This document shows, piece by piece, positions 16,772 to 22,614 of a DNA stretch of 24,896 bases. The notes beneath the pieces were generated by a model, which saw only the letters and a list, made by a program, of their open reading frames with translations, ran no database searches and was not told the DNA's origin. The stretch covers positions 1-24,896 of IMG/VR virus record IMGVR_UViG_3300037041_000102; one strand, 5' to 3'. The stretch comes from a virus. The position numbers were made by a program, and so were the translations under genes. How positions within the stretch are numbered: position 1 is the stretch's first letter; each line of letters opens with the position of its first letter.

Positions 16772-19132
16772 TCAATTATAGTTTACTGTATCCCATATAT
16801 CAGGATCTCTTTGTGATTTAATCTCAAACCATCTAGCACCATTGCTAGATCCATCTACATACTCCTTACCATTGTATTCTGCATATTTCTTACACCATTT
16901 GTTGAATGTTCTGTTTGTCAGGTGCTTCTTTTGGTCAGTGTATTCTGCAGTAAAGTTCTCAAACATTGATACCTTATTCAATCTCTGATCAAATCCTAGA
17001 TTCTTATTATCTACCCACTCAATAAAATCTTGAGATGTCTCATTGATAAACTTTCTCAGCTCTAAATTCTTAGCCTCAGATTCTACTAGACCATTCTCTA
17101 AGTAATAATTTAAGCAGTTAATCATGTAATGGTCAAACCTTGCCCATTCCTGCTCATCCCAATCCTCAAACAGCATAGAGCCAAATTGATCGTATGGAGT
17201 ATGATGTGTACCAAAGTAACTACTCAACTCCACCTCAAACATCCTCCTCTTAAATGATCCTCCATCTGCTTTGATAGTGTAGTTAGTAGAGATTAATACT
17301 TTAGGTGAGTCTTTTACAGGTAGTTTAATTGCATCTCTACCTTTGTATTCAATAGTTAAGCCCTCAGTAATTATACTAAATAAGCTCTCAAAATTAAAGT
17401 TCTTTCTTACATCATCAAATGCCAGCACTTGACAATCAGAAGAGACAGTCTGATAGGGGAATGATTTATTTGAGTCAAAGGTCTTACCATCTATAGTAGA
17501 TACTTTTTTCATGTAACCAATAGCATTTATTAGAATCCCCTTACCACTACCTCCATTAGGATTGTCTGAGATAGTTTCATCATTGAGAATGATTGCTTTA
17601 TTATTAGCTGAGGTCTTATAAGAATGTAGCATATAACCTATTACACTCTTCATAGTATCATATCTCTCTACCTCCTGCCCTGAGATAAACCAAATGAAAG
17701 ACCTAAACATTGACTCATGGTGATCAGCATCTATTAAATCTCTATCTATTATCTGATTATTCCAAACATACCCTTTTAGCTCTGAGTATTCATATATCTC
17801 ATGGTGCTTAGCAAATACTTTAACAGCTGAATTTTTATAGTAAATCATACCATAGTCAATACCATCCCTCTCCATCTCTACATTAGCAGTATCTATCATA
17901 CTGAGGTATTGAGGAGTAAATAGTTTAGACTTCTCAGCTACAGCATCAAAGACAGGAATGCGATTTGATTGGACCAGGTACTCCATCACTCTATCCTTAA
18001 TCTGAAATTCAGAGACATGATTAATAAAGTTCTCATTCTTAGTAATGAATACAAAAGTCTTAGTATTAGCTACAGGATAATACTTATAGTACTGTAGATT
18101 TTCTAAAAATAGCTTAAATCGATATGGTATTATTAATACATCACCTTTAAAATCATATTTCCAAAACTCATCTACCTTTATTACCTCTTTAATAGTCTGA
18201 ATCTCTGACTCAATATTCTCTTTATTGTACTCTTTAAATTCCTCAAGTATTACAGCATCAGACTTACCACTCAGCACAAAATTAATCAGCTTATCTTTTT
18301 TCTCCTTATCCTCAAATTGCTTAGTATTAAAGTTAGCAGTCTTTTTATAAGCAGAATTTATCAGAGCTAGTATCTCTACAGATCCAAAATCTTTCTGCTC
18401 AAATCCTATTAAATAATTCTGACAGGTCATTTTATCTACTCCAAAATCATTAAAGGCTGCTGCTAATTTGTAAAGTGAGGAGTTTCTATTTTGTGAATTA
18501 TACTTCTTTTTAAACCAAGTCATCAGCTTATTAGCTATCTCATCAGTATCTAGGACCTTAATGTTAGTAATGCTACCCACCTCATTAGTCTCAAATGGGA
18601 TAACATCATAGTCAATTATAAAATTCTCAGCATCTAAATTAACATAGATATCAGGATCATAAGATTCAAAGCAAGCTCTAGCAATATCCTTACCTGATTC
18701 ATCTACTCCATTGAATACTGCAGATATCTGCTTAAAATATTCTTTGTATTCTTTATCATCCTGTACTATTGGTATTTTAACTAGAGCTTTTACTCCATTG
18801 CCTGATGGTGATGTCCAACAGGCAAAGATAGATTTGTGAGCTTTCAGTTCTACAATCAGAGCAGGGATATCCTGCACCTCATCAAAATCTAAAGTTAGTA
18901 ATCCTGATGCCTTTCTTAGAGATGCATTATTTCTCTTACTGAAATCACCTCCAAAGGTAACAACAGGCAGCTGCATCTTAATAGATTTTCTTTCCTCTTT
19001 ATCAGTAGAGAATCTTAGGTCCTTACATAACTGCTCAGACTTACCATTCTTAATCCGATCTAAGTAGAATCCTACATCCTTATTCTGATAAGGTGCTACA
19101 TCCTTAATTGATTTGTAAAAAGTTACTTTCAT
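16772..19132 (-). CDS. Primase-helicase (BT4734/VirE-N primase domain plus SF3-type helicase)
   Basis: This 786-residue replication protein has two functional halves. The N-terminal primase-like part carries 'GLLTLDFDEV' at 77-86 (metal-binding Asp pair), 'CWTSPSGNGVKALVKI' at 105-120 and 'ARACFESYDPDIYVN' at 151-165, as in BT4734-like/VirE N-terminal domains of Bacteroidota. The C-terminal helicase part has Walker A 'NPNGGSGKG' with Lys531, a Walker B-type 'LAFDDV' with Asp573-574, and the downstream 'VLISTNYTI' typical of D5/SF3-like helicases. After the invariant Lys the residue is Gly instead of Ser/Thr, which is tolerated in this group. It is transcribed away from the gene-free region at 19133-19552, the candidate origin. 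Confidence 0.86.
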   Translation of the reverse strand: MKVTFYKSIKDVAPYQNKDVGFYLDRIKNGKSEQLCKDLRFSTDKEERKSIKMQLPVVTFGGDFSKRNNASLRKASGLLTLDFDEVQDIPALIVELKAHKSIFACWTSPSGNGVKALVKIPIVQDDKEYKEYFKQISAVFNGVDESGKDIARACFESYDPDIYVNLDAENFIIDYDVIPFETNEVGSITNIKVLDTDEIANKLMTWFKKKYNSQNRNSSLYKLAAAFNDFGVDKMTCQNYLIGFEQKDFGSVEILALINSAYKKTANFNTKQFEDKEKKDKLINFVLSGKSDAVILEEFKEYNKENIESEIQTIKEVIKVDEFWKYDFKGDVLIIPYRFKLFLENLQYYKYYPVANTKTFVFITKNENFINHVSEFQIKDRVMEYLVQSNRIPVFDAVAEKSKLFTPQYLSMIDTANVEMERDGIDYGMIYYKNSAVKVFAKHHEIYEYSELKGYVWNNQIIDRDLIDADHHESMFRSFIWFISGQEVERYDTMKSVIGYMLHSYKTSANNKAIILNDETISDNPNGGSGKGILINAIGYMKKVSTIDGKTFDSNKSFPYQTVSSDCQVLAFDDVRKNFNFESLFSIITEGLTIEYKGRDAIKLPVKDSPKVLISTNYTIKADGGSFKRRMFEVELSSYFGTHHTPYDQFGSMLFEDWDEQEWARFDHYMINCLNYYLENGLVESEAKNLELRKFINETSQDFIEWVDNKNLGFDQRLNKVSMFENFTAEYTDQKKHLTNRTFNKWCKKYAEYNGKEYVDGSSNGARWFEIKSQRDPDIWDTVNYN

Positions 19133-19153
19133 AGTATAAATAAAAAGTGAGAG

Positions 19154-19191
19154 TCCCTGCTTAACACAACCGCCAGGTGGAATTGCAGGGA
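19154..19191 (-). promoter_or_regulatory. Hairpin in the primase-helicase leader
   Basis: TCCCTGC (19154-19160) pairs perfectly with GCAGGGA (19185-19191) across a 24-base loop that is itself C/G-rich by local standards ('CCGCCAGGTGG'). The structure ends 21 bases before the primase start codon at 19132 and has no following T-run, so it is not a standard terminator. It could control translation or be part of the origin. Confidence 0.45.
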
Positions 19192-19236
19192 TTTATACTC
19201 TCTAATGTTTTTTATCATGGCGATTATGTTATGGGA

Positions 19237-19244
19237 CAAATGTA
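19237..19244 (-). promoter_or_regulatory. Weak candidate promoter -7 box for the primase operon
   Basis: On the minus strand this reads TACATTTG, matching TAnnTTTG. A matching TTG at 19-21 bases upstream is not evident. It would give a leader of about 100 bases containing the hairpin at 19154-19191. Confidence 0.3.
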
Positions 19245-19287
19245 ATAATAAAATTAATATATGATACTAAAGTGCAAAAATAAATTA

Positions 19288-19318
19288 TTTGTGCTGTTTT
19301 GTGCTATTATTTGTGCTG
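19288..19318 (+). repeat. Three iteron-like direct repeats TTTGTGCTG/A
   Basis: TTTGTGCTG (19288-19296), TTTGTGCTA (19298-19306) and TTTGTGCTG (19310-19318) start 10 and 12 bases apart, about one helical turn. A fourth copy in inverted orientation is at 19528-19536, although that one overlaps the T-run of a terminator. Clustered, phased repeats next to an A/T block and replication genes suggest protein binding at an origin. Confidence 0.6.
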
Positions 19319-19343
19319 TCTAAACTCCTATTGTTATTGGGCT

Positions 19344-19501
19344 GTAGAAGATTAGAACGAAAAAACACTTTTTTTTTGTAAAAACTGTTCACCCCCCAAA
19401 ATGAAAATAAATTTTTTTTTTATTAAAAATATATTGTAAATAAAAATATATAATATATAGAGTATAGGGGTTGAAATTGTACTTTCGTTCTAATTCTCTA
19501 C
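19344..19501. repeat. 19-base inverted repeat flanking an almost pure A/T block
   Basis: The left arm 19344-19362 reads GTAGAAGATTAGAACGAAA. The right arm 19483-19501 is its reverse complement except for two adjacent positions. The 120 bases between include 19404-19459, where 55 of 56 bases are A or T. This looks like an unwinding element bounded by binding sites. Confidence 0.6.
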
Positions 19502-19533
19502 AAGTCAATATCAGTAAGGGAATTATACAGCAC

Positions 19534-19554
19534 AAAAAAAGCTCCGAAGAGCTT
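19534..19554 (-). terminator. Rho-independent terminator with UUCG loop
   Basis: On the minus strand AAGCTC, TTCG, GAGCTT forms a 6-base stem with the very stable UUCG tetraloop, followed by a run of T to 19534. It begins within the stop codon of the DnaA-like gene and closes the small-gene operon that starts at 22363. Confidence 0.9.
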
Positions 19555-19960
19555 AAATTATTTCTGCTAATTCTTTAGCTGTCATATATTCTTTAAATTT
19601 ATGGACCTTATGATAATCCCAAGGCATCTGAATCTTTACATTGATGTAGTTAAAATTCTCTACTGCTGAGACTTTGTACTTATCCTCATAATTATCCTGA
19701 ATAGCAGTTTGTACTAATGGCTCTATCTCATGCAGATATACTTTATCCTGCTGCCTGGACCATCTCCTGTGCATTTTAATCCCATGTATAACAGTAGCAT
19801 GATGTCTATTCATCAGCCTACCGATTTCACTAAGTGAGAGCTTGCACTTGTTAAGCCTGTACATTACATAGTATCTCTTATAGACATACGATCTATTTCT
19901 AGAGTTGGTAGCTAGTTGATACTTTGTGATTTGTTCTTTTAAAAATTTTAGTTCTGTCAT
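19553..19960 (-). CDS. DnaA domain IV-like DNA-binding protein
   Basis: This is a 135-residue protein with the chosen start ATG at 19960, 1 base after the upstream stop; an upstream in-frame ATG at 20035 would overlap the previous gene by 74 bases. Residues 41-62 contain 'LSEIGRLMNRHHATVIHG', which matches the helix-turn-helix signature of DnaA domain IV (canonical 'G..f.R.HSTV.HA'). The AAA+ part of DnaA is absent, so this is a stand-alone binding domain with an N-terminal helical segment and an aromatic C-terminal extension. Such proteins occur in Bacteroidota phages. It may bind the adjacent repeats as a replication initiator or act as a regulator. It is the last gene of its operon. Confidence 0.72.
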   Translation of the reverse strand: MTELKFLKEQITKYQLATNSRNRSYVYKRYYVMYRLNKCKLSLSEIGRLMNRHHATVIHGIKMHRRWSRQQDKVYLHEIEPLVQTAIQDNYEDKYKVSAVENFNYINVKIQMPWDYHKVHKFKEYMTAKELAEII

Positions 19961-19961
19961 G

Positions 19962-20180
19962 TTATTCTCTATTATAGTTATCAATCCAATAATTGTATAA
20001 TTCTTCGTCTTTTTTGTGACCTTGTGAGTGTGCATAATAACCTACTTGAATAAAATATCTCATCTGCTCCTTCTCCATTCCTTTGGCTTGTTTGATTTTT
20101 AAATCAATATATGAAGTATAAGCATTTTCTTCAATGTAATTTAATTCTTTTTCTAACCATTCTACTGCTGTCTTTTTCAT
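19962..20180 (-). CDS. KTAVEWL-family small protein, copy 1
   Basis: This is a 72-residue protein with start ATG at 20180, 1 base after the previous stop; an earlier ATG at 20216 would overlap. It begins MKKTAVEWLEKEL and has 'QAKGMEKEQMRYF' in the middle, with a Tyr/Asn-rich end. The two genes upstream share 'MK.TAV..L' and 'EKEQ[MI]'. This small family is very common in Bacteroidota phages and has no known function that I can name. It is probably a soluble helical protein. Confidence 0.75.
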   Translation of the reverse strand: MKKTAVEWLEKELNYIEENAYTSYIDLKIKQAKGMEKEQMRYFIQVGYYAHSQGHKKDEELYNYWIDNYNRE

Positions 20181-20181
20181 C

Positions 20182-20400
20182 TTATTCTGATTTAAAGGTT
20201 TCATTGTAGTATTCATCTGCTGAATTATAATCGCCTTTAGTTAATGAGTTTATCCAAGCATCTTTTATCTGCTCTTTCTCCACTGCCAAATACTTATGAA
20301 AGTGGTTAATAAATTCCTTACCTTCGGTTGTGTAAACATTAAATAATTGTGGATGCAATTTTTCTAAATCGCTAAATAATTCTTGTACTGCTGTTTTCAT
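20182..20400 (-). CDS. KTAVEWL-family small protein, copy 2
   Basis: This is a 72-residue diverged member of the same family: MKTAVQELFSDLEKL at the start and 'YLAVEKEQIKDAW' in the middle, ending 'SADEYYNETFKSE'. It lacks the Trp after TAV that copies 1 and 3 have. ATGA overlap with copy 3 upstream and a 1-base gap to copy 1 downstream indicate a tandem array translated together. The function is unknown. Confidence 0.75.
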   Translation of the reverse strand: MKTAVQELFSDLEKLHPQLFNVYTTEGKEFINHFHKYLAVEKEQIKDAWINSLTKGDYNSADEYYNETFKSE

Positions 20401-20600
20401 TTTTCTATTTGTTTAGTTAATCCATCTCTCCACCCTCGCATATATTCAGAGTGCATCTGCTCCTTCTCCATTGCTTTTGCTTGGTCAAGTATATCACTTG
20501 TTATTTTATCAAATAATAATTTGCCATTACTATCTTTTTTCCAATTTAGTTGTTCAGAGCATCCTTGCACAAATAACCATACTACTGCTGTTTGTTTCAT
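20397..20600 (-). CDS. KTAVEWL-family small protein, copy 3
   Basis: This is a 67-residue member: MKQTAVVWLFVQGCSEQLNW at the start, 'DQAKAMEKEQMHSEYMRGW' at about 38-56 and a basic end. The 'QAKxMEKEQM' block is nearly identical to copy 1, so the two are paralogues rather than chance. ATGA overlaps on both sides. The function is unknown. Confidence 0.75.
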   Translation of the reverse strand: MKQTAVVWLFVQGCSEQLNWKKDSNGKLLFDKITSDILDQAKAMEKEQMHSEYMRGWRDGLTKQIEK

Positions 20601-22396: not shown

Positions 22397-22427
22397 CAAA
22401 GATAATAGAAAGTTTTATAACTGCAAT
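22397..22427 (-). promoter_or_regulatory. Bacteroidota-type promoter for the small-gene operon
   Basis: On the minus strand TTG (22426-22424, in the context ATTGC), 19 bases, then TATCTTTG (22404-22397). This fits the -33 and TAnnTTTG -7 elements of the Bacteroidota primary sigma factor with ideal spacing. Transcription would begin near 22390 and read the genes from 22363 to 19553. Confidence 0.8.
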
Positions 22428-22464
22428 AAAAAAGTGTAATTTATATTCATTCTAAATAAGGATA

Positions 22465-22501
22465 GGTACAATTTGTACCCATCCATAAGGGCAATTTGTA
22501 C
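22465..22501. promoter_or_regulatory. Operator-like palindrome and partial second copy
   Basis: GGTACAATTTGTACC (22465-22479) is a perfect palindrome around a central base. CAATTTGTAC recurs 23 bases on, at 22492-22501, as a half-matching second site. Both lie about 40-75 bases upstream of the -33 box of the early promoter. A tandem CACTTAA pair (22501-22507, 22509-22515) follows. These look like binding sites for a dimeric regulator. Confidence 0.5.
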
Positions 22502-22547
22502 ACTTAAACACTTAACGAGGGTGATTTTTACTTAATAGTGAGGTCAC

Positions 22548-22589
22548 AAAAAAAAAGCAGCTGCGTGCTGGGGAGCTTACAACTGCTTT
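22548..22589 (-). terminator. Rho-independent terminator after the exonuclease gene
   Basis: On the minus strand AAAGCAGTTG (22589-22580) pairs with CAGCTGCTTT (22563-22554) with one G-T pair, a 16-base loop and a run of T to 22548. It lies 25 bases after the exonuclease stop codon and separates the lysis/exonuclease unit from the early operon. Confidence 0.82.
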
Positions 22590-22614
22590 CTACACATTAT
22601 GGAACGGTGCTAAG

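Follow-up and report, generated by a model that had tools for sequence, protein, structure and literature searches.

Where does replication of this phage begin, and which of two neighbouring proteins would recognize the site? The question is posed by positions 19133-19552, where annotated ORFs lie farthest apart in the window (the whole stretch of DNA analysed, a 24.9-kb viral record that encodes terminase subunits, an Erf-type protein, an HNH endonuclease and a DNA polymerase exonuclease subunit). The gap is 420 b long and 71% A/T, and both genes bordering it lie on the minus strand. On its left is a gene for a primase (BT4734-like_N, 1.9e-18) joined to a helicase; on its right, as the initial annotation had read it, is a gene for a protein with a DnaA-type domain (Bac_DnaA_C).

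The interval, its repeats and the adjoining helicase

The elements of the candidate origin and its flanking genes are as follows.

16772-19132, minus strand: primase with SF3/D5-type helicase and C-terminal winged helix (715-775), the proposed initiator (BT4734-like_N, structure model, fold match)
19288-19295, plus strand: iteron 1, TTTGTGCT (repeat count against shuffles; conservation of the iteron block 0.998)
19298-19305, plus strand: iteron 2, TTTGTGCT (repeat count against shuffles; conservation)
19310-19317, plus strand: iteron 3, TTTGTGCT (repeat count against shuffles; conservation)
19342-19362: left arm of the inverted repeat (core identical in 40/40; 20 of 21 columns invariant)
19404-19459: A/T block, putative site of melting (a single G/C in 56 nt, the window's longest such run; mean conservation 0.973)
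19483-19503: right arm of the inverted repeat, with the degenerate iteron AGAACGAA (AGCACAA in some relatives; 10 variants)
19529-19536, minus strand: fourth iteron TTTGTGCT, in inverted orientation beyond the A/T block (T-run plus iteron, 13 of 14 columns invariant in 41 sequences)
19539-19554, minus strand: intrinsic terminator of the DnaA-like gene (the scan gave 2 terminators where 0.2 were expected; conserved)
19553-19960, minus strand: DnaA-like gene, 135 aa, DnaA domain IV helix-turn-helix only, no AAA+ motor (PF08299, 3.7e-11)

The three phased repeats, the inverted fourth copy and the A/T stretch of the initial annotation all exceed chance. The direct iterons are spaced by 10 and 12, and the four copies fall within 250 b; elsewhere in the 24.9 kb the 8-mer occurs just once, at 18273, and none of 1000 dinucleotide shuffles of the region reached four copies (maximum three). 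The A/T run was likewise matched by 0 of 1000 region shuffles. Two iteron sets flank this block beside the gene, the far set consisting in the window of one clear and one degenerate copy.

We gathered 155 loci by scans with the two proteins that flank the interval, and compared 40 distinct relatives (41 sequences) of what we call class A, whose primases are 96-98% identical. The whole interval is nearly unchanged in these 40, in which identity of the DnaA-like protein falls as low as 77%, and in two of them as low as 44%. Averaged over columns, conservation is 0.998 for the three direct iterons, 0.997 for the T-run with the inverted iteron, 0.992 and 0.961 for the left and right arms of the inverted repeat, and 1.0 for the promoter element and hairpin stems described below. 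Conservation of the repeats in relatives, which the initial annotation had named as a check, is thus borne out by iterons that are almost invariant. The fourth copy overlaps the T-run of the DnaA-like gene's terminator, yet it too is conserved. The annotated inverted repeat is present (18 of 21 positions matched, arms 120 b apart; 0 of 60 shuffles reach 18), but it does not behave as a base-paired element: none of the 10 right-arm variants is compensated in the left arm, whose core is invariant in 40, which led us to discard a cruciform or RNA role. Since the right arm varies in this way and gains an extra AGCACAA copy in 5 of 41 sequences, the arms are best read as degenerate iterons.

A structure model of the 786-aa primase-helicase (pLDDT 81.9) found its best fold match in the SaPI5 primase-helicase 7ola (Z 20.1, rmsd 5.1, 378 residues, model 321-766), an initiator that works with iterons, and the alignment extends over the greater part of the C-terminal winged helix. 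Poxvirus D5/E5 (Z about 18) and ASFV PrimPol and NrS-1 (Z 13.9) came next, and PriRep1 with dsDNA (7pds, Z 10.1) was also among the matches. Fold comparison alone gave these; a PDB sequence search with the helicase profile returned no match. The primase-SF3/D5 helicase fusion is further supported by BT4734-like_N and, in relatives, by DUF5906 and PriCT_1. Origins of phage-inducible islands (PICIs) consist of two iteron sets flanking an A/T-rich region, and their pri-rep-ori module drives plasmid replication (PMC6092414). Given this precedent and the SaPI5-like fold, the primase-helicase is probably the initiator and 19133-19552 probably its origin, a P4/PICI-like pri-rep-ori replicon placed 5' of the initiator gene. 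The candidate origin of the initial annotation is strengthened in that every element is conserved, the adjacent helicase has an initiator-type fold, and the layout recurs with other iterons in other groups, as set out next.

Exchange of iterons together with the primase-helicase

Each relative has one or the other of two cassettes, which differ both in their iterons (TTTGTGCT in class A, TTTGTGCAA in class B) and in their primase-helicase. In the class B intergenic region, TTTGTGCAA(AGTT) iterons lie in both orientations around an A-rich block. The class B primase-helicase differs in having a Prim-Pol N-terminus; the nuclease, ERF and HNH neighbours are the same, and so is the DnaA-like protein (79-89%). 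Between the classes, helicase identity is 58% in the SF3 core and 21% in the winged helix, the diverged part, which is co-inherited with the iterons. No third cassette type occurred among 84 distinct loci of the group (54 A and 30 B). Iteron type agreed with primase-helicase type in 67 of 67 distinct loci in which both were readable, including two in which the intervening leader belongs to the other class. On the tree of DnaA-like genes the A/B label needs 14 changes, random labels 14.0, and at least 11 changes are forced by well-supported branches; on the downstream nuclease tree it needs 22, against 24.7 when shuffled. With the label scattered over both flanking genes' trees and the pairing complete, origin and primase-helicase move as a unit, and the genes on either side do not follow.

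Because the origin is exchanged as a unit with the primase-helicase, the pattern suggests that this enzyme, rather than the DnaA-like protein, recognizes the iterons. Crossovers within the cassettes are hindered by the low identity there, and linkage by itself could therefore hold iterons and helicase together; the leader recombinants, few in number, are the only evidence against mere linkage. Two matched iteron/helicase alleles, with at least 11 label changes on a neighbour gene's tree, amount to a natural experiment on origin-initiator matching.

The initial annotation had implied that the 135-residue DnaA-like protein binds the repeats. We found no support for this: the iterons change type with the primase-helicase and show no linkage to the DnaA-like gene, and on account of the cassette exchange the protein probably does not set iteron identity. 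A form of this idea would have the domain IV protein bind the core TTTGTGC/GCACA, which resembles the NCACA half of a DnaA box, and hand the origin to a primase-helicase of low specificity. TTTGTGC is indeed common to the A and B iterons, and a DnaA_C match is present in 28 of 28 phage records of the three groups with this helicase family, and in MW202828, whereas seven other phages of Bacteroidota type gave a single weak match. We nevertheless consider this reading unlikely, as both iteron types are found with the same kind of DnaA-like protein, in some cases an identical one (3 of 41 distinct proteins), and in three class A contigs the iterons are unchanged beside a protein that is 44% identical and altered in its recognition helix, albeit in one clade of few contigs.

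The DnaA-like protein is evidently tied to the primase-helicase replicon, and its target may be the common core TTTGTGC, DnaA boxes of the host or something different. Why a DnaA DNA-binding domain without a motor is kept in every sampled phage with this helicase family is a testable question. Its structure model (pLDDT 57.7) was too poor for a fold search. The rare 44% allele is carried by loci L086, L133, L154 and L235, with origin and primase unchanged in three of them. Small ORFs just upstream of the DnaA-like gene (19962-20600, minus strand) are poorly conserved: relatives that are 80-98% identical in their other genes either lack them or match them at 44-75%.

A profile scan brought in a third group, 60-kb phages (80 loci) with a related primase-helicase. 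Upstream of it the order is terminator, CGACA/TGTCG repeats, a TATATA or A/T block, more CGACAT repeats, then the gene. Repeat density there is 9.2 per kb against 1.3 elsewhere, with the upstream 300 b forming the strict CGACA maximum in just 43 of 72 loci. Bacterial MAG contigs have further repeats, e.g. ATGACGG and GCAACAC, upstream of helicase relatives. Helicase lineages thus tend to come with repeats of their own immediately 5' of the gene. In the 60-kb group a Mantel test comparing the winged helix with upstream k-mers was weakly positive, but was set aside as uninformative, the N-terminal domain correlating equally. Seven loci of this group (L244, L246, L262, L275, L286, L296 and L315) have two separate DnaA_C matches per record.

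Promoter and leader of the primase gene

The size and place of the 420-base region beside the primase-helicase gene were annotated correctly. It is not strictly gene-free, because 19133-19247, the 115 bases nearest the primase, hold a promoter of the Bacteroidota type and a leader that has a covarying pseudoknot and a short ORF.

19129-19218, minus strand: 29-codon leader ORF whose TGA overlaps the primase ATG (kept in 24/27 leader variants)
19149-19202, minus strand: leader hairpin GAGAGU-AUAAAU-CCCUGC ... GCAGGG-ACUCUC, with its loop (19163-19175) as the 3' strand of pseudoknot stem S1 (covariation; fold z -2.8)
19218-19230, minus strand: 5' strand of S1, AACAUAAUCGCCA, pairing with 19163-19175 (score against shuffled and cross-class pairs)
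19237-19244, minus strand: TACATTTG, probable -7 element (TAnnTTTG) of the primase promoter (invariant in class A, kept in class B)
19275-19282, minus strand: TATTTTTG, second possible Bacteroidota -7 element, abutting the iterons (TAnnTTTG match; conserved)

The window contains 40 TAnnTTTG elements against 27 expected, which, together with relatives among Bacteroidota phages, suggests a Bacteroidota host. The leader hairpin changes in a compensatory manner between classes, from CCCTGC/GCAGGG in A to CCCCCTA/TAGGGGG in B. Its loop is predicted to pair with a distal leader strand, AACAUAAUCGCCA with UGGCGGUUGUGUU in class A and GAACAGCCAA with UUGGCUGUUC in class B, the upstream strand lying at the presumed 5' end. 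S1 pairs have a mean cognate score of 14.9, compared with 7.0 (sd 1.3) for shuffled and 6.7 and 8.0 for cross-class pairs, and a compensatory change was also seen inside class A (L163). The ORF, of 28-29 codons, starts at the end of the S1 5' strand and is maintained through compensating indels; its chance occurrence is about 5% per leader type, for three types that are not fully independent. An Rfam search of the leader gave nothing near threshold, and the structured leader was found in classes A and B only. A relaxed leader pattern picked up 18 further loci, which we rejected as apparent chance matches, mostly within coding sequence.

These elements also allow the region to be regarded as purely regulatory, its repeats being operators for a repressor or initiator acting on the primase promoter while replication starts elsewhere. 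The iterons abut TAnnTTTG elements, the structured leader follows, and no GC-skew change, proposed earlier as a mark of the origin, was seen at the interval; the skew tracks gene strand and is a weak test here because nearly all genes lie on one strand. We regard this as quite improbable, more so than binding by the DnaA-like protein, since an operator would have no use for a distal repeat set and an A/T block, the two sets surround the window's longest A/T run beside a self-loading, initiator-type helicase, and several groups share the layout with different repeats. The missing skew inflection does count against an origin bound by the primase-helicase, as do the core TTTGTGC of both iteron types, a sequence that the shared DnaA-like protein could read, and the location of PICI origins 3' of the gene. 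A host-type origin, at which host DnaA would bind DnaA boxes as it does in many replicons, is very improbable indeed, for the interval lacks canonical boxes (TTATNCACA) and the four in the window are within chance (12 of 100 shuffles).

Proposed initiation and its relation to known replicons

In the origin that we favour, the primase-helicase would use its C-terminal winged helix to bind the two iteron sets, which lie in opposite orientations on either side of the A/T block. Assembled as SF3 hexamers, it would open this block and begin primed synthesis. Its promoter abuts the iterons and could be subject to autorepression, and the pseudoknot leader with its coupled ORF would control translation of the initiator. 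A more elaborate version is a hybrid, in which a self-loading SF3 primase-helicase with exchangeable cognate iterons works with a free-standing DnaA domain IV protein that reads TTTGTGC, initiator supply is set by the pseudoknot leader and coupled peptide, and frequent cassette exchange keeps two replicon alleles in one phage population. We offer this version as a tentative possibility. The principle is already known; the novelty lies in the combination and the two-allele exchange, and we found no paper on this combination in the open-access literature.

In phage P4 the alpha protein is primase, helicase and iteron-dependent origin binder in one, the role proposed for the enzyme here. Alpha and its cognate ori are covered in PMC6092414; the likeness is by description only, as the P4 primase is of a different type and P4 ori and crr are separate. 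PICI/SaPI replicons (SaPI5 PriRep, EcCICFT073) share the fused primase and self-loading helicase with a C-terminal winged helix, and the arrangement of short iterons, next to the gene, as two sets on either side of an A/T-rich block (PMC6092414). They differ in that the PICI origin is immediately 3' of the gene and the phage origin 5' (at its 3' end the phage gene is separated from the next by 1 base), and in that the phage has a DnaA domain IV companion and a pseudoknot leader. Unlike a PICI, this is no satellite that relies on a helper phage for packaging: it is a tailed phage and encodes both terminase subunits, large and small, as well as many late genes. A satellite-type self-loading helicase replicon would so be extended to aquatic phages, here a freshwater one, probably of Bacteroidota.

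SCCmec Cch2 is likewise a D5-like helicase, and the intergenic region next to it, a putative origin, has one inverted repeat and three short direct repeats; its C-terminal domain binds these iterons beside its gene, a precedent for the phage enzyme, and the winged helix binds origins in Cch2/SaPI helicases (PMC7581432). Cch2 has no fused primase, however, its repeats are downstream and read AAGTG, and SCC replication has not been shown in vivo. From a DnaA/oriC-type origin the interval differs in having no TTATNCACA cluster and a neighbour of 135 aa with domain IV only and no AAA+ module. PLE RepA was rejected as a model, being a RepA_N protein with no predicted primase or helicase (PMC7145576).

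The leader has its own parallel. In the IncI and IncB plasmids, typified by ColIb-P9 RepY/RepZ, the initiator leader forms a pseudoknot (UUGGCG/CGCCAA) and carries a short coupled ORF. The phage leader, as read from sequence alone, resembles it in a predicted loop-to-distal-strand pseudoknot (UGGCG/CGCCA), and its short ORF, which overlaps the initiator start, may likewise be coupled; it differs in that the complementary strand is upstream of the hairpin, and the initiators are unrelated. Papers on pseudoknot switches are among those cited in PMC10724649. Elsewhere in the window, the second largest intergenic gap (22400-22614) is a possible operator region: it contains a near-palindrome around GTACAATTTGTACC, GGGCAATTTGTAC recurs 23 b further on, and there is a terminator-like hairpin.
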